From assembly GCA_009701715.1 (NCBI GenBank), contig WLJO01000011.1, positions 1 to 64,000 of the forward strand: a DNA stretch of 64,000 nt, given 5' to 3'. Below are positions 8,281-63,906 of this stretch, piece after piece. Within the stretch, counting starts at the first letter, position 1; each line of letters begins with the position of its first letter. Source of the stretch: Actinomycetota bacterium. Lineage in GTDB: Bacteria; Actinomycetota; Acidimicrobiia; Acidimicrobiales; Ilumatobacteraceae. Position numbers and translations under genes: made by a program. The notes under the pieces are model-generated. The model ran no database searches and was not told the DNA's origin. It saw only the letters and a program-made list of their open reading frames with translations.

Positions 8281-9212
8281 CGTTCCGCTCCGTCGAAACC
8301 CACGAGGCGGATCTCGCTGCGCAGGCGAATTCCGCGCTCGGACCAGACGCGCTCGGAGATCATCTCGATCAGGGCGTGGACATCGGCGGCTGTTCCACCC
8401 TCGGTGGCCTGGATGAAGTTTGCGTGCTTGTCAGAGACGAACGCCGTGCCGATCCTCGCCCCGCGCAGGCCAAGTTCGTCGATGACCTGCCCCGCGGCAA
8501 GCGCTCCTGGAGAAGGGTTTACGAACACCGAACCTGCATTCTGGCCGCCCGGTTGATGCTCGCGGCGCCATCTCACGATCTCGGTGATCTCGCGCTCGCT
8601 CGACGCGACGTCCCCGGGCGCGAGCCGGAACGTTGCACTGAGCACGATCTCGTGATCCCCTAGGTCGGAGCCGCGGAACCGCAGGCCGAGCGAGTGCGCA
8701 CCCTTACGGCACCGTTGGCCAAGCCGCAGGTCGAAGACATCGACGTCGACGAGGGACGCAGCAGTGTCAGACCCGTGCCCGCCAGCGTTCATGCGAACCC
8801 CACCCCCCACCGAGCCGGGGACACCCACAGCCCACTCGAGACCGGTCAGTCCCGCTGCCGCAGACCGCCGTGCGAGTACCGGCAGCAGGGCGAAGCCACC
8901 GGCGACCACGTCGAGGCCGGTAATCCCGATCTCAGTGGCGGCCTCCCCGAACGTGACGGCGATGCCGTTGAACCCCGAGTCGGCGACGAGCAGGTTCGAC
9001 CCACGGCCGATCACGAGTACGGGGAGGCCCGTCGCCAGGTGTGCCGTGGCCACCTGCTCGAGATCCGTCAACGACCCGATCCGCACGAAGAGACGCGCGG
9101 CGCCGCCCACCCGGTACGTGGTGAGCGGTGCGAGCGGCACCTCTCGCTCCGCGAGCGAACCGAGGAGTGCAGCCGCGTGCTCGACCGCGCCGCCCGGCGT
9201 CGTGTCGATCAC
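8277..9212 (-). CDS. murB: UDP-N-acetylenolpyruvoylglucosamine reductase MurB
   Basis: Cytoplasmic FAD enzyme that reduces enolpyruvyl-UDP-GlcNAc to UDP-MurNAc with NADPH. APLTTYRVGGAARLF opens the FAD domain, LPVLVIGRGSNLLVAD is the FAD-pyrophosphate motif, and the catalytic serine region appears as NAGSVFVNP near residue 228. The C-terminus contains SDKHANFIQATEGGTAADV, typical of MurB. Start is GTG at 9212 overlapping the murC stop (GTGA). Length is 311 residues. Confidence 0.95.
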   Translation of the reverse strand: MIDTTPGGAVEHAAALLGSLAEREVPLAPLTTYRVGGAARLFVRIGSLTDLEQVATAHLATGLPVLVIGRGSNLLVADSGFNGIAVTFGEAATEIGITGLDVVAGGFALLPVLARRSAAAGLTGLEWAVGVPGSVGGGVRMNAGGHGSDTAASLVDVDVFDLRLGQRCRKGAHSLGLRFRGSDLGDHEIVLSATFRLAPGDVASSEREITEIVRWRREHQPGGQNAGSVFVNPSPGALAAGQVIDELGLRGARIGTAFVSDKHANFIQATEGGTAADVHALIEMISERVWSERGIRLRSEIRLVGFDGAER

Positions 9213-10630
9213 GTTGCGAACCGTTCCGCGTCAAGTTCGGCCCGTCGCGCGAGCACCTCGGAGGGAAGGCCGGCAACGTCGCCGCACCCCATCGACACGC
9301 AGACATCCCCGGAGCGGACTTCCCGGGCGAGAAACTCGACGAGGTCGTGGCGTCGTGGCAGCCACACCACGCGCTGGTGCGGGTGCGCATCCAGAATCGC
9401 GTTGACCACGAGCTTTCCCGTGACACCGGGGATCGGGGCGTCCCCCGAGGGGTAGATCTCCGTGATAACCGTGACATCGGCAGCAACGAAGGCGTCCCGG
9501 TACTCGGGCGACAGCAGCGCCATCCTGCGGTAGCGGTTCGGCTGAAACACCGCCACGACACGCGAGAAACCGTCGCCGCTTGACCGCAACGCGTCGAGCG
9601 CTGCAGCAATCTCGTTCGGGATGTGCCCGTAGTCGTCGACGAAGGTCGCCCCGCCGTGCGATCCACGGAAGTCGAGCCGACGGGCCACACCACCGAACCG
9701 CTCGAGGGACTGCGCGATCACCCCGAAGGCGACACCGAGCTCGGTGGCCATCGCGACGACGGCGGTCGCGTTGCGAACATTGTGCATCCCACGCAGGGGC
9801 AGATTGACCTCGCCGAGCGTCTCGCCACGACGGACCACGACGAATCGCCAGGTGCCCGCAGACGACTCCGCATCGACAATCCGGTAGTCAGCATCCGGCG
9901 CGGTTCCATAGGTAACGACGTCTCGGACGGCCGCCAGTCGGCGACAGACTTCGTCGTCGGCGCAGAGCACCTTGGGCCCGTCGACCTGGTCCAGATACTG
10001 CTCGAATCCGGCCACGATCGCGTCGAAGGAGCCGTAGTTCTCCAGATGGTCGACATCGACGTTCGTCAGGATGGTGGCGGCAAGGGGTAGCTGCAGATGG
10101 GTGAAGTCACTCTCGTCCGCCTCCACGACGGACCATTCGCTTCCGGTCCACTGCGCACCCGTCCCGATGTCGGTGACGTCGCCGCCGATCACGAAGCTCG
10201 GCCGCAGACCGGCGGCCGCCATCACCAGCATCATCATCGACGACGTCGTGGTCTTGCCGTGTGTTCCGGCAACGCCGACCGCACGTGTCATCGCACAGAT
10301 CGAGGCCAGCATGCCCGCGCGGTGCAAGGTGACGATCCCCTTCTCCCGGGAGGCGACGAGCTCGATATTTCGCTCGGGGATCGCCGTCGAGTACGTGACG
10401 GCATCGCAGCCGTCAACGTGATGACGGCTGTGCCCGATGTGAACCTCCACGCCGGCGCTACGGAGGCGGTTGAGCACCGGGACCTCGCGCAGGTCGCTGC
10501 CCGAGACGGTGTGACCCATCTCCGCGAGCACGAGAGCGAGCGCGCTCATTCCGGGACCGCCTACCCCGATGACGTGGTACCGGCCGGGGCGCGACAGGTC
10601 AAGCGGTACTACAGGGCGGCCGTCAGCCAC
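9209..10630 (-). CDS. murC: UDP-N-acetylmuramate--L-alanine ligase MurC
   Basis: ATP-dependent ligase that adds L-Ala to UDP-MurNAc. The Rossmann motif YHVIGVGGPGMSALAL, the P-loop VGVAGTHGKTTTSSM and the central-domain VVEADESDFT are present, and the end of the protein has the Mur ligase C-domain. The GTG at 10630 is preferred: it overlaps the murG stop by 8 bases and has GAGG 9 bases upstream. This gives 473 residues. An in-frame start at 10699 would extend the protein 23 residues into murG without similarity. It is the only ATP-dependent Mur ligase gene in the cluster besides murE. Confidence 0.95.
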   Translation of the reverse strand: MADGRPVVPLDLSRPGRYHVIGVGGPGMSALALVLAEMGHTVSGSDLREVPVLNRLRSAGVEVHIGHSRHHVDGCDAVTYSTAIPERNIELVASREKGIVTLHRAGMLASICAMTRAVGVAGTHGKTTTSSMMMLVMAAAGLRPSFVIGGDVTDIGTGAQWTGSEWSVVEADESDFTHLQLPLAATILTNVDVDHLENYGSFDAIVAGFEQYLDQVDGPKVLCADDEVCRRLAAVRDVVTYGTAPDADYRIVDAESSAGTWRFVVVRRGETLGEVNLPLRGMHNVRNATAVVAMATELGVAFGVIAQSLERFGGVARRLDFRGSHGGATFVDDYGHIPNEIAAALDALRSSGDGFSRVVAVFQPNRYRRMALLSPEYRDAFVAADVTVITEIYPSGDAPIPGVTGKLVVNAILDAHPHQRVVWLPRRHDLVEFLAREVRSGDVCVSMGCGDVAGLPSEVLARRAELDAERFAT

Positions 10631-56162: not shown

Positions 56163-56536
<374 letters not shown>

Positions 56537-56563: not shown

Positions 56564-56633
56564 TGTGTTAGATTTGTCACATCCGCGGCGTGGGGACGTC
56601 CGGAGTTCACACACCATGTTCTGGGGGGAAGTA
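56564..56633 (+). promoter_or_regulatory. Promoter and leader of the Baeyer-Villiger monooxygenase gene
   Basis: An extended -10, TGTTAGATT (TAGATT at 56569-56574), begins a leader that contains a short stem with a GGGG loop (GGCGT, 56587-56591; ACGTC, 56596-56600) and ends in GGGGGGAAGTA before the ATG. The layout recalls, less exactly, the leaders of the three binding-protein genes downstream. Confidence 0.45.
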
Positions 56634-58250
56634 ATGACACAGACCAAGACCCATACGGCAAAGCTTGACGTCGTCGTTGTCGGCGCCGGTTTTGCGGGGA
56701 TGTACCTGCTCCACCGCCTCCGCGGGCTCGGATTCAACGCCCGTGTGTTCGACGCTGCCAGCGGCGTCGGTGGCACGTGGTACTGGAACCGCTACCCCGG
56801 CGCACGGTGCGACGTTCGCAGCCTCGACTACTCGTTCTCCTTCGACAAGGAACTCGAGCAGGAATGGGAGTGGACCGAAAAGTTCGCCACGCAGCCCGAG
56901 ATCCTTCGCTACGCGAACCATGTTGCGGACCGGTACAACTTGTGGCCCGACATGCAGTTCAACACCCGCATCGAAGGCCAGACCTTCGATGACGCCACCG
57001 AGCGCTGGACGGTTACCACGTCGGCTGGCGACGTCATCGACGCCCAGCACGTCGTGCTCGCCGTCGGCACCCTCTCGGCGCCGAAGTTGCCCGAGATCAA
57101 GGGCATCGACTCGTTCAAGGGCGCCTGGTTCCAGACGCAGAAGTTCCCGAAGGAAGGCGTGAACTTCCTCGGAAAGCGCGTCGCCGTCATCGGAACCGGC
57201 TCGTCGGCCATTCAGTCAATCCCGGAGATCGCGAAGACCTGCAAGCAGCTCACCATCTTCCAGCGCACGCCGAACTTCTCGTTCCCGGCCGGCAACCGTC
57301 CGCTCGCCCGCGACGAGGTCGACGACATGAAGAAGGTGTACCCGGCCTACCGCCAGACCGCCCGCCAGTCCTTCTTCGGCCAGCCGGCCGAGGAGCCGAC
57401 CCAGTCGGCGCTCGAGGTGTCTGCTGAGGAGCGCAACGCTCGCTACCAAAAGGGCTGGGATGCTGGTCAGCTCGTCGGCATCCTCGGTGCGTTCACCGAC
57501 ATCCTGTTCGACAAGGACGCCAACGACACGGTTGCGGAGTTCGTCCGCGCCAAGATCCGCGAGATCGTGAAGGACCCGGTAACGGCCGAGGCACTCTGCC
57601 CGTACAACCACCCCGTCGGCACCAAGCGTCCCTGTCTCGACACCGGCTACTACAACGTGTTCAACATGCCGCACGTGCGTCTCGTCGACCTGAAGAAGAC
57701 CGACATCACCGAGATCACCGCGACCGGCATCAAGACCACTGCGGAGAGCATGGACTTCGACGTCATCATCTACGCCACCGGCTTCGACGCCATGACCGGT
57801 TCGATCCTCAAGATCGACGTCACCGGCCGCAACGGCCTGAAGCTCGGCGATGTGTGGAAGGACGGCCCGAGCACGTACCTCGGCCTCGGCGTCCACGGCT
57901 TCCCGAACATGTTCACGGTCACCGGCCCGCAGAGCCCGTCCGTGCTGTCCAACATGATGGTCTCCATCGAGCAGCACGTTGACTGGATCACCGACTGCAT
58001 CACGGCACTGCGCGACAAGGGCTTCAAGTCCATCGAGGCAACCGACAAGGCGCAGAAGGACTGGGTGGAGCACACCTACGAGATCGGCCAGACAACGCTG
58101 TACCCGCTGGCGGACTCGTGGTACATGGGCGCCAACGTGCCCGGCAAGCCGCGTGTGTTCCTGCCGTACATCGGTGGCGTCGGCCCGTACCGCGAGAAGT
58201 GCGACGAGGTCGCCAAGAACAACTACGAGGGGTTCGCACTCGCCAAGTGA
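56634..58250 (+). CDS. Baeyer-Villiger monooxygenase-like flavoprotein
   Basis: A 538-residue FAD/NADPH class B monooxygenase of the cyclohexanone/cyclopentanone monooxygenase group; such enzymes insert oxygen next to a ketone. The FAD motif is GAGFAG (17-22), GGTWYWNRYPGARCD is typical, and the NADPH motif is VIGTGSSAIQ (from 185). The class fingerprint FxGxxxHxxxWP reads FKGAWFQTQKFP (161-172), with Gln at the His position and Phe at the Trp position. The strong GGGGGGAA ribosome-binding site and the esterase 27 bases downstream suggest a ketone-to-ester-to-alcohol pathway. Confidence 0.88.
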   Translation: MTQTKTHTAKLDVVVVGAGFAGMYLLHRLRGLGFNARVFDAASGVGGTWYWNRYPGARCDVRSLDYSFSFDKELEQEWEWTEKFATQPEILRYANHVADRYNLWPDMQFNTRIEGQTFDDATERWTVTTSAGDVIDAQHVVLAVGTLSAPKLPEIKGIDSFKGAWFQTQKFPKEGVNFLGKRVAVIGTGSSAIQSIPEIAKTCKQLTIFQRTPNFSFPAGNRPLARDEVDDMKKVYPAYRQTARQSFFGQPAEEPTQSALEVSAEERNARYQKGWDAGQLVGILGAFTDILFDKDANDTVAEFVRAKIREIVKDPVTAEALCPYNHPVGTKRPCLDTGYYNVFNMPHVRLVDLKKTDITEITATGIKTTAESMDFDVIIYATGFDAMTGSILKIDVTGRNGLKLGDVWKDGPSTYLGLGVHGFPNMFTVTGPQSPSVLSNMMVSIEQHVDWITDCITALRDKGFKSIEATDKAQKDWVEHTYEIGQTTLYPLADSWYMGANVPGKPRVFLPYIGGVGPYREKCDEVAKNNYEGFALAK

Positions 58251-58277: not shown

Positions 58278-59213
58278 ATGGCACTTGATCCCATCGCAGC
58301 TGGACTGCTTGAGCAGATGGCCGCAGCCGGCGGCCCTGCTATCAACGAACTCGACCCGCCCGCGGCCCGGGAACTGGCACAGGGCTTCGTGCCCCTCGCC
58401 GGTGAGCCCGAGGAAGTGGACGAGTCGAAGGACATCATCATCCCCGGCCCTGGCGGAGGAATTCCCGCCACGGTCACGACACCCAAGGGTGCCGGCAAGG
58501 GCCCGCTCGGCTGCCTGCTCTACTACCACGGTGGTGGTTGGGTAATCGGCGACCGCGCGAGCCTCAACCCGAGCGTCACGCGGCTCGCCAACGCAGCGGG
58601 TTGCAAGGTCGTGTCGATCGACTACCGCCTTGCACCGGAGCACAAGTTCCCGGCTCCGCTGGACGACTGCTATGCAGCGCTCGAGTGGGTTGCCGCGAAC
58701 GGTGCTTCGCACGGCATCGACCCGAGCAAGCTTGCTGTCGGAGGTGACAGTGCGGGCGGCAACCTCGCCGCCGCAGTCGCACTGCGTGCCCGCGACGAGA
58801 AGGGCCCCGGCATCAAGTTCCAGGTTCTCGTCTACCCGGTTACGCACCACGACTTCGGCACGGTTTCCTACCGGGACAACGCCGACGGCTACCTGCTCAC
58901 CCGCACGATGATGGACTGGTTCTGGAACCAATACGTCCGCGACGAGAACGACAGCAAGAACCCGTACGTCAGCCCCCTGCTCGCCAAGGACCTTTCCGGT
59001 CTGCCGGCCGCGGTGGTCTACACGGCCGAGTTCGATCCGCTGCGCGACGAGGGCGAGGCATATGCCAAGCGCCTGAAGGAGGCCGGCGTGTCCGTGTCGC
59101 AAAAACGGTTCGACGGACAGATCCACGCCTTCTTCCAGATGGGTGGGGTGTTCCCCGCTGCAGCAGATGCCATTAGCGATGCCGCCGCTCACCTCAAGAA
59201 GGCGTTTGCCTGA
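58278..59213 (+). CDS. Alpha/beta-hydrolase carboxylesterase (HSL family)
   Basis: A 311-residue esterase of the hormone-sensitive-lipase group. The oxyanion-hole motif is YYHGGGWVIGD, the nucleophile is in GGDSAGGNLAAA, the acid is in TAEFDPLRDEG and the His is in FDGQIHAFFQM. AGGAG lies 6 bases before the ATG. It is co-transcribed with the monooxygenase, as in known pathways where the ester product of Baeyer-Villiger oxidation is hydrolysed. No signal peptide, so it acts inside the cell. A terminator follows. Confidence 0.93.
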   Translation: MALDPIAAGLLEQMAAAGGPAINELDPPAARELAQGFVPLAGEPEEVDESKDIIIPGPGGGIPATVTTPKGAGKGPLGCLLYYHGGGWVIGDRASLNPSVTRLANAAGCKVVSIDYRLAPEHKFPAPLDDCYAALEWVAANGASHGIDPSKLAVGGDSAGGNLAAAVALRARDEKGPGIKFQVLVYPVTHHDFGTVSYRDNADGYLLTRTMMDWFWNQYVRDENDSKNPYVSPLLAKDLSGLPAAVVYTAEFDPLRDEGEAYAKRLKEAGVSVSQKRFDGQIHAFFQMGGVFPAAADAISDAAAHLKKAFA

Positions 59214-59269
59214 CCGCTCGCGCGGTCGAATCAGCAACACATTCAGAGTCATCCCCTCTGAGGGTTCGG

Positions 59270-59307
59270 GAGGGCGCACGGCGATCCGTGCGCCCTCTTC
59301 GCTTTTT
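59270..59307 (+). terminator. Intrinsic terminator after the esterase gene
   Basis: Perfect 12-bp stem (GAGGGCGCACGG, 59270-59281, with its complement at 59286-59297), loop CGAT, then TTCGCTTTTT. It ends the monooxygenase-esterase transcript and is duplicated at 60839. Confidence 0.92.
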
Positions 59308-59328
59308 CCCAGTTCACGGAGAGCCCCC

Positions 59329-59432
59329 GTGACATCAGTCACAGAATGCGTGCTACGTTCCCGCTGTCGCCGGCGCTCGCCGAGCGACCCCGTTGGGGAA
59401 CGGGAACACTAAATTTTGGGGGTACGTCAGTC
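59329..59432 (+). promoter_or_regulatory. Promoter, operator-like palindrome and leader hairpin of binding-protein gene 1
   Basis: The palindrome GTGAC-ATCA-GTCAC (59329-59342) overlaps a TGACAT -35-like element. An extended -10 TGCTACGTT (TACGTT 59354-59359) follows at 18-base spacing. The leader has a perfect 6-bp stem with a GGGG loop (CCCGTT 59389-59394, AACGGG 59399-59404), then AACACT and a GGGGG stretch before the ATG at 59433. The same architecture occurs at the next two genes. Confidence 0.6.
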
Positions 59433-60785
59433 ATGTTCATCCGACAGCACTCTGCGCCGTCCGGGCGCCGCAAAAAACTCACGACAGCAATCGCAGTACT
59501 GGCCACGGCGGCACTGGTAGCCGCCGCCTGCGGCGACAAGAAACAAGACGCAGCGACCACCACCGCTGCAGCAGCACCGGAAACGACTGCAGCGTCCACT
59601 GAGACAACTGCTGCTCCAACCGAGACAACTGCTGCCCCGACTGAAACCACTGGAGTGGTTCCGCCCACGGGTGAACCGATCAACGTGTGGGTCCTCACAA
59701 CTGTGGACTCGTCGTTCCTTTCGTACCCGAACATCAAGGCAGCCGGCGACATTTACGAGAGTTACATCAATGACCGCGGCGGTATCGCTGGTCGTCCACT
59801 GAAGGTCACGTTCTGTGACGGCAAGACCGATCCGAACGAGGACGCAGCCTGCGCCCGCAAGGCCGTCGCCGACAAGGCCGTCGCGCTCGTCGGTGGCTTC
59901 GACATCGACATGAGCCTGGCCATCGGTGTGCTCGAAGAAGGCAACACCGCATGGTTCGGCGCCTGCTGCCCCATCGTGGCCAAGGAGTACACGAGCCCGA
60001 TCTCGTTCAACCTCGGTTCAGCTTTCGACTTCAATATCGGCTCGGCGTACAAGCTCAATGCCGACGGCTGCAAGAACATCTCGATGGTTTACCTCGAGGC
60101 CAATGCCGACTTTGCCATCAGCCAGACCAAAATTGGTATGGAGAAGGTCGGCTACGCCGGGAAAGTCGAGTATTACGTGATCCCGTCCGGGACAACCGAC
60201 TACTCGTCGGTCGCCGCGAAAGCCACCGATGGGGACGTGGACTGTCTGTACGGTGGATTCTCGGATATCGCCTGGCTCGGATTTATCCCAGCAATGGAGG
60301 CACTCGGCGTCAAGCCTCGCCTCTACGGGGTTCAGGGTAATTTCAACGTCAAGGTGGCCGAAGCGTTCCCGGAGGCAACCGAGAACGGCGTGGTGATCAA
60401 CGCCTACCCGAACATCGCCGCCAAGGCGTGGACGCCCTACCGTGATGCGCTCGAACAGTACAACGCTCCCGATCTGGACTGGAACTCACTTGCGGGTCTC
60501 GGCACCTGGGCGGCCTTCGAGGCCTTCCGCAAGATTGTCGAACAAATGGCTGCCGACGGCATCACCGACATCAATCACAGCAGCTTCATCGATGCGGCGA
60601 ACAAGACGAGCAACCTGAAGATGGACAACATGATCGGTGACATTGACTTCACGAAGCCGTGGGCCGGAGCGGGTGGCACATTCCCGCGCGTCTTCAACCA
60701 CTCCATCTCGTTCGACAGCATGAGCGGCGGCAAGCTGACACCGCAGGACGACAAGACCTACGACATGATTTCTTACTGGTCCTGA
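59433..60785 (+). CDS. Branched-chain-type ABC substrate-binding lipoprotein 1
   Basis: A 450-residue type I periplasmic-binding protein (LivJ-like). The signal peptide ends with lipobox VAAAC near residue 34, then a Thr/Ala/Glu/Pro linker of ETTAAPT repeats, then the binding domain. The domain has YPNIKAAGDIYESYINDRGG, VTFCDGKTDPNEDAACARKA, VALVGGFDIDMSLA, and DLDWNSLAGLGTWAAFEAF. FCDGKTDPNEDAACARK replaces the usual DD..DP..A motif of the family. No permease or ATPase genes follow within the window. The ligand is unknown. Confidence 0.88.
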   Translation: MFIRQHSAPSGRRKKLTTAIAVLATAALVAAACGDKKQDAATTTAAAAPETTAASTETTAAPTETTAAPTETTGVVPPTGEPINVWVLTTVDSSFLSYPNIKAAGDIYESYINDRGGIAGRPLKVTFCDGKTDPNEDAACARKAVADKAVALVGGFDIDMSLAIGVLEEGNTAWFGACCPIVAKEYTSPISFNLGSAFDFNIGSAYKLNADGCKNISMVYLEANADFAISQTKIGMEKVGYAGKVEYYVIPSGTTDYSSVAAKATDGDVDCLYGGFSDIAWLGFIPAMEALGVKPRLYGVQGNFNVKVAEAFPEATENGVVINAYPNIAAKAWTPYRDALEQYNAPDLDWNSLAGLGTWAAFEAFRKIVEQMAADGITDINHSSFIDAANKTSNLKMDNMIGDIDFTKPWAGAGGTFPRVFNHSISFDSMSGGKLTPQDDKTYDMISYWS

Positions 60786-60838
60786 TCCCCGGGATGAGTT
60801 GACCAACGGGGTTCACTGGCCAATCGGCCGACAATCGG

Positions 60839-60876
60839 GAGGGCGCACGGCGATCCGTGCGCCCTCTTCGCTTTTT
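60839..60876 (+). terminator. Intrinsic terminator after binding-protein gene 1
   Basis: Sequence-identical copy of the terminator at 59270: a 12-bp stem with CGAT loop followed by TTCGCTTTTT. Each of the first two binding-protein genes is thus isolated from upstream transcription. Confidence 0.92.
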
Positions 60877-60897
60877 CCCAGTTCACGGGGACCACCC

Positions 60898-61001
60898 GTG
60901 ACATCAGTCACATTTGTCGTGCTATGGTGCCGCTGTCGCCGGTGTTCGCCGAGCGACCCCGTTGGGGAACGGGAACACTGCAATTTGGGGGTACGTCAGT
61001 C
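60898..61001 (+). promoter_or_regulatory. Promoter, operator-like palindrome and leader hairpin of binding-protein gene 2
   Basis: GTGAC-ATCA-GTCAC is at 60898-60911, and the extended -10 is TGCTATGGT (TATGGT 60923-60928). The GGGG-loop stem CCCGTT/AACGGG is at 60958-60973, then AACACT and GGGGG before the ATG at 61002. The -10 differs from that of gene 1 (TACGTT), so strengths may differ. Confidence 0.6.
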
Positions 61002-62351
61002 ATGTTCATCCGACAGCACTCTGCGCCGTCCGGGCGCCGCAAAAAGCTCACGACAGCAATCGCAGTACTGGCCACGGCGGCGTTGGTTGCCGCCGCCTGT
61101 GGCGACAAGAAAGAAGAAGCGACACCAACAACTGTGACAACGGAAACGACTGCGGCGTCCACTGAGACGACTGCTGCTCCTACCGAGACAACTGCTGCCC
61201 CGACAGAGACCACTGGAGTGGTTCCGCCCACCGGTGAGCCGATCAACGTCTGGGTCGTCACGACCGTCGATTCCTCCATTGCCTCGTATCCGAACATCCA
61301 GGCAGCCGGCGATATCTACGAGAGCTACATCAACGACCGCGGCGGTATCGCTGGTCGTCCGCTGAAGGTCACCTTCTGTGACGGCAAGACCGACCCGAAC
61401 GAGGACGCAGCCTGCGCCCGAAAGGCGGTTTCCGACGGAGCGGTCGCCCTCGTCGGTGGCTTCGACATCGACATGAGTCTCGCCATCAGTGTGCTCGAGG
61501 AGGCCAAGACCGCATGGTTCGGTGCCTGCTGCCCGTCGGTAGCCAAGGAGTTCTCCAGCGCCATCGCGTTCAACATGGGTTCCACGTTCTCGTTCAATCC
61601 CGGGGCAGCATCGAAGATGACCCAGGACGGTTGCACCAATTCCGCATTCCTCGTTGGCGATACGGCATCCGGCGACTATTTCATCAGCCAGGCCAAGGCT
61701 GCTCTTCCAAAGGTCGGCTACACCGGCAAGGCGAGTTACCTGAAGGTACCGATCGGCACCACCGACTATTCCTCGATCGCCGCGAAAGCCACCGAGGGCG
61801 GTGTGGACTGTGTCCACGGGTTCCTCGGCGACATTGCGTGGCTTGGTCTCATCCCGGCGATGGAGGCAATCGGGGTCAAGCCCCGCCTCTACGGTCCGCA
61901 GGGCAACCTGAACGTCAAGGTGGCCGAGGCCTTCCCCGAGTTCACCGAGGGCGCCATCGTGATCAACGCCTATCCGAACATCGCGGCCGATGCTTGGACG
62001 GACTACCGGGCGGCCCTCGAGCAGTACAAGGCGCCGGATCTCGACTGGAACTCGCTTGCGGGTCTCGGTACCTGGGCCGCCTTCGAAGGCTTCCGCCTCA
62101 TCGTCGAGAAAATGGTTGCTGACGGCATCACCGACATCAACCACGAGACCTTCCTCGCGGCAGCCAACACCACCACGGCGTTGGACACCAAGGGCATGGT
62201 CGGCGTCATCGACTTCACCAAGCCCTGGACCGGGGAGGGCGGTGCATTCCCCCGCATCTTCAACCGGTCGGTCTCGTACGACTGCGTTTCGGGCGGCAAG
62301 CTGACGCCCTGCGACAACAAGACCTACGACATGACGCAATACCACGCGTAA
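61002..62351 (+). CDS. Branched-chain-type ABC substrate-binding lipoprotein 2
   Basis: A 449-residue paralogue of the preceding protein. The first 37 residues are nearly the same, including lipobox VAAAC. The C-terminal half (DLDWNSLAGLGTWAAFEGF, then IVEKMVADGITDINHETF) is closer to protein 3 than to protein 1. The central ligand-facing region (FSFNPGAASKMTQDGCTNS) differs from protein 1 (FDFNIGSAYKLNADGCKNI), suggesting different ligands or affinities. It has its own promoter and is followed by a GC-rich hairpin. Confidence 0.88.
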   Translation: MFIRQHSAPSGRRKKLTTAIAVLATAALVAAACGDKKEEATPTTVTTETTAASTETTAAPTETTAAPTETTGVVPPTGEPINVWVVTTVDSSIASYPNIQAAGDIYESYINDRGGIAGRPLKVTFCDGKTDPNEDAACARKAVSDGAVALVGGFDIDMSLAISVLEEAKTAWFGACCPSVAKEFSSAIAFNMGSTFSFNPGAASKMTQDGCTNSAFLVGDTASGDYFISQAKAALPKVGYTGKASYLKVPIGTTDYSSIAAKATEGGVDCVHGFLGDIAWLGLIPAMEAIGVKPRLYGPQGNLNVKVAEAFPEFTEGAIVINAYPNIAADAWTDYRAALEQYKAPDLDWNSLAGLGTWAAFEGFRLIVEKMVADGITDINHETFLAAANTTTALDTKGMVGVIDFTKPWTGEGGAFPRIFNRSVSYDCVSGGKLTPCDNKTYDMTQYHA

Positions 62352-62389
62352 ACACCAAGGACGAATCCGTCCGACAGAGTTGAGCCCTA

Positions 62390-62423
62390 GGGGCCCCGTA
62401 CCGCAACAGCGGTGCGGGGCCCC
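62390..62423 (+). terminator. GC-rich hairpin after binding-protein gene 2
   Basis: GGGGCCCCGTACCGC pairs with GCGGTGCGGGGCCCC around the loop AACA (one mismatch). It is very stable but lacks a T-run (followed by GGTTCATT), so termination would depend on stability alone or on Rho. Confidence 0.6.
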
Positions 62424-62446
62424 GGTTCATTACCCGGGAGTAACTG

Positions 62447-62553
62447 CTGTGCCTTCTGGCACAGGGTCGAATCTGTGTTAGTTTCCTGTTGCTGTTCTCA
62501 CCTGAGACGGCCCCTTTGGGGAAAGGGATTATCAACACTGGGGGTTAAGACCG
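62447..62553 (+). promoter_or_regulatory. Promoter, operator-like palindrome and leader hairpin of binding-protein gene 3
   Basis: The palindrome CTGTGCC-TTCT-GGCACAG (62447-62464) stands where genes 1 and 2 have GTGAC-ATCA-GTCAC. The extended -10 is TGTTAGTTT (TAGTTT 62479-62484). The leader stem CCCTTT (62512-62517) / AAAGGG (62522-62527) again has a GGGG loop, with one base pair changed on both sides relative to genes 1 and 2. AACACTGGGGG follows, then the ATG at 62554. Confidence 0.6.
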
Positions 62554-63906
62554 ATGGGTCTTCATCGTTCCTCTGCGGCGTACAAGCGTCGCAGGACACT
62601 CGGATCAGCAGTCGCACTTGTGGCTGTTGGGTCGATTTTCTTGGCAGCGTGTGGTTCCAAGGAAGAAGAAGCAACAACAACTACGGCGGCAACGGAAACG
62701 ACTGCAGCGTCCACTGAGACGACTGCTGCTCCTACCGAGACAACTGCTGCCCCGACTGAGACAACCGGAGTGGTTCCGCCCACGGGCGAGCCGCTCAACG
62801 TTTGGATCGACTCCACCGTCGACTCATCCGTGCAGTCCTACCCGAACATCAAGGCTGCCGGCGAGATCTACGAGAAGTACATCAACGACAACGGCGGTAT
62901 CGCTGGTCGTCCGCTGAAGGTCACCTTCTGTGACGGCAAGACCGACCCGAACGAGGACGCAGCCTGCGCCCGCAAGGGTGTCGCTGACGGCGCCATTGCG
63001 TTCGTCGGTGGCTACGACACTGACGTGTCGCTGCTCATCGGCGTGCTCGAGGAGGCCAAGACCGCATGGTTCGGCGCCTGCTGCCCCGTGGTGGCCAAGG
63101 AATTCGCGAGCCCGATTGCGTTCAACATGGGCTCAGTGTTCTCCTTCAACCCCGGTGCCGCCGCAAAGATGGTCGCCGACGGTTGCATGAACTCGACCTA
63201 CATCGTTGGTGACAACGCCACAGGCGAGTACTTCAAGAGCCAGGCGAAGACCGCTCTCGAGAAGCTCAAGTACACGGGCAAGGCCAACTACGTCACCCTG
63301 CCGCTCGCGACCACCGACTACTCCTCGATTGCCGCCAAGGCCACCGAGGGCGACGTCGACTGCATCCACGGCTTCATGGGCGACATCCAGTGGCTCGGAC
63401 TCATCCCGGCCATGGAGGCGCTCGGCGAGAAGCCCCGCCTCTACGGCCCGCAGGGCAACCTGAACGGCAAAGTTGCGGAGGCCTTCCCGGAGTCCACCGA
63501 GGGTGCTGTGATCATCGGCACCTACCCGAACATCGAAAACGCTGTTTGGGAGGGCTACCGCGCCGCACTCGTGAAGTACGAAGCACCGGACCTCGACTGG
63601 AACTCGCTTGCGGGTCTCGGTACCTGGGCCGCCTTCGAAGGCTTCCGCCTCATCGTTGAGAAGATGGTTGCTGACGGCATCACCGACATCAACCACGAGA
63701 CCTTCCTCGCGGCATCCAGCGCCACCTCGGCGTTGGACACCAAGGGCATGGTCGGCGTCATCGACTTCACGAAGCAGTGGGACGGAGAGGGTGGGGCCTT
63801 CCCCCGAATCTTCAACCGCAACGTGTTCTACGACTGCGTTTCGGGCGGCAAGCTGTCGCCCTGTGCAGAGCCGGGCCCGTTCGACGCCTCGCCGTATCAC
63901 GCCTGA
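62554..63906 (+). CDS. Branched-chain-type ABC substrate-binding lipoprotein 3
   Basis: A 450-residue paralogue with a different signal peptide (MGLHRSSAAYKRRRTLGSAV, lipobox LAAC near residue 33) but the same Thr/Ala/Glu/Pro linker and binding domain (FCDGKTDPNEDAACARKG, FVGGYDTDVSLLIGVLEEAK, WFGACCPVVAKEF). DNA of the last third is almost the same as in gene 2, which suggests recombination. The conserved CC in GACCP and a late Cys (YDCVSGGKLSPC) could form disulfides outside the membrane. The ligand is unknown. Confidence 0.88.
   Translation: MGLHRSSAAYKRRRTLGSAVALVAVGSIFLAACGSKEEEATTTTAATETTAASTETTAAPTETTAAPTETTGVVPPTGEPLNVWIDSTVDSSVQSYPNIKAAGEIYEKYINDNGGIAGRPLKVTFCDGKTDPNEDAACARKGVADGAIAFVGGYDTDVSLLIGVLEEAKTAWFGACCPVVAKEFASPIAFNMGSVFSFNPGAAAKMVADGCMNSTYIVGDNATGEYFKSQAKTALEKLKYTGKANYVTLPLATTDYSSIAAKATEGDVDCIHGFMGDIQWLGLIPAMEALGEKPRLYGPQGNLNGKVAEAFPESTEGAVIIGTYPNIENAVWEGYRAALVKYEAPDLDWNSLAGLGTWAAFEGFRLIVEKMVADGITDINHETFLAASSATSALDTKGMVGVIDFTKQWDGEGGAFPRIFNRNVFYDCVSGGKLSPCAEPGPFDASPYHA

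Follow-up and report, generated by a model that had tools for sequence, protein, structure and literature searches.

A conserved GGGG-loop hairpin in mRNA leaders of Ilumatobacteraceae, a candidate docking site for a 6C/B11-type small RNA

Leader hairpins at the locus

The stretch of DNA analysed here, called the window, comprises 64,000 nucleotides of contig WLJO01000011.1 from a member of the Ilumatobacteraceae (hereafter the family). It carries three tandem genes for Peripla_BP_6 binding proteins, which sit downstream of the genes for a flavin monooxygenase and a LipP1-type hydrolase, and the subject of this study is a small hairpin with a loop of four G's in the leaders of these genes. A first-pass annotation, made from the window alone, had described a 6-bp stem with such a loop before all three binding-protein genes. 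This is confirmed by exact matches to CCCGTTGGGGAACGGG at 59389-59404 (leader 1) and 60958-60973 (leader 2) and to CCCTTTGGGGAAAGGG at 62512-62527 (leader 3). Perfect matches to CCCNTTGGGGAANGGG occur in leaders 1-3 only, both in the 64-kb window and in the whole 2.8 Mb genome; the other matches from the exact-motif genome search are imperfect and look like chance. The weaker version that the annotation had seen in front of the monooxygenase gene is also real: a fourth hairpin, GGCGT-GGGG-ACGTC, lies at 56587-56600 and has a counterpart in the monooxygenase leader of the congener G001, GGGACGT[GGGG]ACGTTCC. The elements of the four leaders are:

56582..56604, + strand: monooxygenase leader hairpin TCCG-c-GGCGT[GGGG]ACGTC-CGGA, loop 56592-56595; orthologs in other genera keep the GGGG apex on other stems
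56623..56628, + strand: GGGGGG Shine-Dalgarno-like run, the second G-tract of the monooxygenase leader
59366..59388, + strand: upstream helix P1 of leader 1 (GTCGCCGGCGCTCGCCGAGCGAC), predicted fold
59389..59404, + strand: GGGG-loop hairpin of leader 1, CCCGTT[GGGG]AACGGG, loop 59395-59398
59418..59422, + strand: GGGGG Shine-Dalgarno-like run of gene 1; nearly all orthologs retain GGGGG(A)
60935..60957, + strand: upstream helix P1 of leader 2, predicted fold
60958..60973, + strand: GGGG-loop hairpin of leader 2
60987..60991, + strand: GGGGG Shine-Dalgarno-like run of gene 2
62496..62507, + strand: upstream helix P1 of leader 3 (TCTC ACCT GAGA), predicted fold
62512..62527, + strand: GGGG-loop hairpin of leader 3, CCCTTT[GGGG]AAAGGG, loop 62518-62521; identical in the congener
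62540..62544, + strand: GGGGG Shine-Dalgarno-like run of gene 3

In the predicted fold the second helix of leaders 1-3 is located immediately 5' of the hairpin. Leader 3 of G001 has the hairpin unchanged, and its P1 reads CCTC..GAGG, the outer pair being changed from T-A to C-G. The GGGG loops of the window leaders start at -36 to -42 and the GGGGG runs at -12 to -16, the latter 9-10 bases 5' of the ATGs at 59433, 61002 and 62554. AACACT follows the hairpin immediately in genes 1 and 2 and six bases further on in gene 3. The hairpins are followed by AACACT.. or ATTATC.. and not by an immediate U-run, which is unlike an intrinsic terminator or attenuator. An Rfam scan of the window gave RNase P RNA as its sole match, and the hairpins match no cis-regulatory element in Rfam.

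The difference in one base pair between the stems had been taken as compensatory and as a sign of selection on the RNA. Leaders 1 and 2 are, however, part of a tandem duplication of 286 nt (59266-59551 and 60835-61120, 92% identical) which is recent and takes in the terminator and promoter as well as the leader and signal peptide of the first two binding-protein genes. Because of this duplication the window holds just two independent leaders, and the covariation argument from the window alone is thin. Scanning each leader against shuffled sequence gave p = 0.010, 0.045 and 0.130, which is modest evidence per leader. The argument becomes far stronger with the orthologs of other genera.

Conservation in orthologous leaders

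The relatives identified by protein similarity are assemblies of Ilumatobacteraceae and other Acidimicrobiales, including Desertimonas flava, and the leaders of the monooxygenase and binding-protein orthologs were examined as two sets without selection for hairpins. The test scored how often a run of at least four G's upstream of the ribosome-binding site lies at the apex of a stem (stem score >=5), with the expectation obtained by shuffling 12 nt on each side. Among the 29 leaders of the binding-protein set, from which window and congener were left out, 7 of 13 upstream G-runs lie at a stem apex, where 0.67 were expected. The monooxygenase set, made up of 64 leaders without the window gene and its ortholog in the congener, has 14 of 43 against an expected 2.14, and none of its 10 C-runs is at an apex. 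The proposed association with binding-protein genes is not specific, as the hairpin is best conserved before flavin monooxygenases.

The 14 monooxygenase cases represent about six lineages with unrelated stems (GGCG(C/T)ATC, CGGTCC, GACGGCT, CGACGC, CCGGCGA and CGCAC), and in all of them the loop ends 23-35 nt 5' of the start codon. Across genera the stems are likewise unrelated (GGCGTATC, CGGTCC, GACGGCT, CGACGC, CCGGCGA, GCCTTC, CTCGT) and the GGGG is constant. Counted by lineage, which is fairer than raw counts because related genomes are not independent, there are about six monooxygenase and about six binding-protein lineages. The same test gave 11 apexes against 8.8 expected in ordinary leaders (n=1180, four genomes) and 9 against 7.9 in coding windows (n=1290), and the element is therefore tied to particular genes and not a general feature of leaders. 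A generic enrichment of GGGG tetraloops in leaders (10 against 1.2) had been seen but was driven by the discovery cluster and selected regions; it was dropped because loops of 4-6 nt and flank shuffles give the ordinary-leader figures just quoted.

In 13 curated examples each of the six pairs has changed on both sides, with 95% pairing and a covariation of 1.18 against 0.32 when shuffled. Since these examples were picked for having a hairpin, it is the ortholog tests that carry the weight. In this way the proposed search of related genomes did yield paired changes in ortholog leaders, but the covariance models of the leader themselves gave matches near chance. The two models, R1 and R2, are crude because their seeds were anchored by hand, with linkers trimmed or padded (MAFFT alignment of such divergent leaders fails); searches of genomes produced few matches per genome with E-values near chance, which serve as leads only.

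The AACACT and GGGGG that had been listed as companions of the hairpin are present in all three leaders, but they fared differently in the relatives. AACACT is a feature of the genus, and conservation reaches further for the GGGG loop and for the GGGGG of the ribosome-binding site. The GGGGG is near-universal before the start codon of binding-protein orthologs and is mainly a Shine-Dalgarno variant, reading as GGAGG with one G-U pair. AACACT..GGGGG was rejected as a regulon tag, as neither of its two additional genome matches has a similar leader. In two monooxygenase leaders of genus g11 (L215 and L234) the ribosome-binding G-run is itself looped in GGAAC-TGGGG-GGTTC; docking site and ribosome-binding site would coincide in this variant.

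The comparisons support a hairpin under selection as RNA structure, with a fixed GGGG loop, in particular genes. We read it as an RNA hairpin whose loop is recognised because the stem varies while the loop is fixed, the G's are on the coding strand only, no U-run follows and no Rfam family matches. Evolution can apparently hold a loop constant while the stem which presents it is freely rewritten.

A candidate partner RNA

A conserved G-loop suggests a C-rich partner, and such a partner was therefore sought. No genome of the family reaches the gathering score of 47 bits for 6C RNA (RF01066), the best scores being 39, 32 and 32 bits. The sub-threshold matches, in genomes G003, G028 and G030, are compact RNAs with C-rich hairpin loops that have the linker (C)AGGTTGAGAGGCC in common. 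R3, a covariance model that covers hairpins 2 and 3 and was built on five seeds edited slightly to stay in register, detects this putative small RNA (sRNA) in 23 of the 25 genomes of the family at E <= 0.05; most values are far lower, and that of G011 is marginal. It has no match in any of the 15 other families of the order that were tested. A second R3 match in G014 is weak and looks unrelated. The copy in the window genome (contig C15, hairpins 2-3 at 9194-9272; E 3.9e-8) has the loops CCCC, CCCCC and CCCC; a linker search of the genus with one mismatch missed it, and the covariance model recovered it. Matches to a bare C-run pattern are in many cases unrelated GC-rich coding DNA, and only those with the GGTTGAGA linker were kept as sRNA.

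The RNA has three hairpins, with loops of C4-C6 in most genomes, and the last one has a long, GC-rich stem that ends in CTTT or TTTCCCG, so that a C-rich loop resides in the terminator as in 6C. Most copies are flanked by a LysR gene, which is divergent, and by a HAD gene on the downstream side. At the locus in the window genome (C15:7694-10772) the divergent LysR gene adjoins as in the relatives, and no HAD gene is seen downstream. In eight family loci, this one included, the sRNA region has no Rfam match at E<=1, and others match only below the 6C cut-off; the putative family is one previously absent from Rfam.

The candidate resembles the 6C/B11 RNAs in being small and intergenic, with C-rich loops and the last of these in the terminator (PMC12395582, PMC10470900, PMC2764107). 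A HAD gene adjoins most family loci and six true 6C loci, and B11 lies between Rv3660c and Rv3661. The family sRNA differs from 6C in having three C-loop hairpins, not two, and a conserved linker, CAGGTTGAGAGGCC. Its HAD gene is downstream on the same strand, whereas that of 6C is divergent, and encodes a protein with an extra acyltransferase domain; the upstream gene is the LysR regulator. R3 gives about 25 bits (E ~1e-3) on three true 6C loci, and a stretch of 33 residues around the HAD motif is 48% identical. A common origin of the two RNAs is plausible. What the sequences themselves show is the hairpin with its covariation, the tie to certain gene families, and the sRNA gene with its conservation.

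Models for the function of the hairpin

In the model that we favour, with somewhat more confidence than doubt, a 6C/B11-type sRNA docks at two points, the GGGG hairpin and the GGGGG of the ribosome-binding site. The hairpin would be a cis-acting mRNA element exposing the GGGG of its loop about 21-40 nt 5' of the start codon, with the GGGGG as a second G-run contact. The partner would be the trans-acting sRNA from contig C15, with its C4-C5 runs in three hairpin loops: one C-loop may dock on the GGGG loop in a loop-loop contact and another pair with the ribosome-binding site. This would place the monooxygenase, the binding proteins and perhaps a permease under joint translational control. We infer that both RNAs are transcribed and pair, and likewise the sign and the trigger of the control; by analogy repression is more likely than activation.

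The docking model draws on the precedents of B11 and GsrN. The B11 RNA of Mycobacterium marinum has three stem-loops of which two are C-rich; the C-loop of the terminator pairs with G-tracts near ribosome-binding sites of targets, and B11 represses through C-loops acting on G-tracts in the 5' untranslated regions, the G's tested in pks5 being at -41/-40 (PMC12395582). In M. abscessus either loop suffices for repression of eccB4 through a G6 tract (PMC10470900). GsrN of Caulobacter pairs by a C-rich loop with a G-tract in the katG leader, as compensatory mutants showed, and activates (PMC5869019). The pairing predicted here is of the same kind, an sRNA C-rich loop on a G-tract of an mRNA leader, but GsrN belongs to another phylum, activates its target and has one C-rich target-binding loop at its 5' end. 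As in 6C/B11 targets, the window leaders have a G-tract near the ribosome-binding site that is predicted to be able to pair with the C-loops. The family differs from B11 targets in presenting the G-tract in the loop of a covarying hairpin; we found no such description for B11 targets.

Pairing was scored for two non-overlapping contacts taken together, each by its hybrid energy plus the cost of opening both RNAs. Among 723 sampled leaders of the genome, leader 1 ranks 1st, the monooxygenase leader 2nd, leader 2 3rd and leader 3 15th; that of a downstream LivH-type permease gene ranks 14th. The ranking shows compatibility and not interaction, because the presence of two accessible G-runs raises the score of any leader, and this partial circularity is one of several points that weigh against the docking model. 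The GGGG loop gives just four strong pairs, and the flanking loop bases match in some genera (UUCCCCCAA against UUGGGGAA) and in part only in the window genome. The congeners G001 and G002 gave no sRNA match; their assemblies are 81% and 85% complete, and G001 does carry the leaders. Among the monooxygenase and binding-protein orthologs there are several with just a plain hairpin, or with no hairpin at all. Finally, for gene classes other than these two there are only individual cases, as the leader-model matches are near chance.

The hairpin could also act alone. As a 5' stem it would protect the mRNA or hold the ribosome-binding site open, and its GGGG loop would be a standby site pairing with the CCUCC end of 16S rRNA. 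Its position, 3' of the probable start site and 5' of the ribosome-binding site, would suit this, several orthologous leaders have a stem with another loop (e.g. GTCGC-ATAAG-GCGAC), and hairpins with a TTCG tetraloop are also over-represented in the 5' leaders of the window genome (6 observed, 0.57 expected in the leader sample). Stability as such, however, needs no identical loop in at least six lineages with unrelated stems, and the GGGG apexes are concentrated in two gene families with no enrichment in leaders generally; we consider a hairpin acting alone unlikely, though the best of the alternatives. If the hairpin instead served a protein, loop and GGGGG would be the two contacts of a G-binding translational regulator like CsrA. 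A loop motif paired with a motif in the ribosome-binding site is the usual layout of CsrA sites, and the G-rich loop and G-rich ribosome-binding site of the family leaders match it as they do CsrA/RsmA sites in general. The loop has no consistent GGA, though, and csrA (PF02599) is absent from three genomes of the genus in searches whose positive controls worked, which makes this explanation improbable. The suggestion of the first-pass annotation that G-rich loop and G-rich translation start form a regulatory site has gained a concrete candidate partner in the family-wide C-loop sRNA.

Two further explanations dispense with a regulatory RNA structure. The inverted repeat might be a DNA operator just 3' of the promoter; it is near the transcription start, and palindromes are also found upstream of the -10. 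In an operator the half-sites would be kept and the spacer free, the reverse of what is observed, namely half-sites free to vary and a spacer GGGG that is fixed and always on the coding strand (no C-runs at an apex), and we regard an operator as very improbable. Least credible of all is coincidence combined with duplication, in which the three leaders were copied from one ancestor and the pattern in relatives is due to chance. The recent origin of leader 2 or 1 from the other and the weak p-values of single leaders fit such a history, but it is already contradicted by the two ortholog sets outside the discovery cluster, which exceed the flank-shuffle expectation about 6- and about 10-fold.

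Extended beyond the window, the docking model would describe an Ilumatobacteraceae-wide regulon in which a three-loop 6C-like sRNA reads GGGG-tetraloop hairpins together with GGGGG and controls genes for oxygenases and substrate uptake. We put this forward tentatively, as a proposal slightly more apt to fail than to hold. Hairpins and C-loop sRNA together point to an unrecognised RNA-controlled set of catabolic and transport genes in the family. If the docking model is true, the hairpin would represent a new type of target element for sRNAs, one in which selection acts on the loop rather than on the sequence of the stem; a conserved sRNA family is added along with its target element, and 6C-type control reaches beyond mycobacteria and their relatives. 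The little-understood 6C mechanism would then become testable by comparative genomics, as the loops of sRNA and targets can be traced through many genera. The Acidimicrobiia are an abundant and mostly uncultured group in which RNA-based control is essentially undescribed in the open-licence papers searched, and among these we found no description of an sRNA of this kind in the family or of GGGG-hairpin sRNA targets.

Other genes with GGGG-apex leaders

Some further genes have a GGGG-apex leader. They were drawn from covariance-model matches near chance or from a survey of leaders, and count as no more than leads. Such a leader, in each case with a G-rich ribosome-binding site, precedes the gene for an ABM-domain protein in the window genome and in G001. 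Other cases precede an SDR gene and genes for a molybdopterin oxidoreductase, an acyl-CoA ligase, an esterase with beta-lactamase fold and a protein whose sequence reads as a P450, the last without a Pfam match in the part tested. On contig 41 of genome G020 two neighbouring paralogs (L095 and L275, at about 158.9 and 155.4 kb) have GGGG-apex leaders with differing stems; the pair echoes the layout of the tandem paralogs of the window, and the N-terminal part tested gave no Pfam match.

Genes and promoters of the window

The genes and the features upstream of the leaders are listed below. The -10 sequences were read by eye.

56569..56574, + strand: probable -10 (TGT-TAGATT) of the flavin monooxygenase gene
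56634..58250, + strand: flavin-binding (Baeyer-Villiger-like) monooxygenase; Pfam Pyr_redox_3 / FMO-like, NCBIfam PtlE-like below cut-off
58278..59213, + strand: hormone-sensitive-lipase-type hydrolase; Pfam Abhydrolase_3, NCBIfam LipP1 above cut-off
59329..59342, no strand: palindrome GTGACATCAGTCAC upstream of the gene 1 -10, with CRP-like spacing
59354..59359, + strand: probable extended -10 of gene 1 (TGC-TACGTT)
59433..60785, + strand: binding-protein gene 1, Peripla_BP_6 lipoprotein (Pfam)
60898..60911, no strand: palindrome GTGACATCAGTCAC upstream of gene 2
61002..62351, + strand: binding-protein gene 2, Peripla_BP_6 lipoprotein (Pfam)
62448..62463, no strand: palindrome TGTGCCTTCTGGCACA upstream of gene 3, a diverged counterpart, which in the congener is TGTGCCTTTCGGCACA
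62479..62484, + strand: probable extended -10 of gene 3 (TGT-TAGTTT)
62554..63906, + strand: binding-protein gene 3, Peripla_BP_6 lipoprotein (Pfam)

The form TGnTAnnnT of the -10 precedes all four leaders, also in the congener. The GTGACATCAGTCAC and TGTGCCTTCTGGCACA palindromes of genes 1-3 have the TGTG-N8-CACA spacing of CRP/GlxR-type sites and overlap the expected -35 regions, and a transcriptional regulator may act at them as well. RNase P RNA (class A, 185 bits) occupies 56168-56535, directly 5' of the monooxygenase promoter and leader, with its 3' end about 34 nt from the probable -10.

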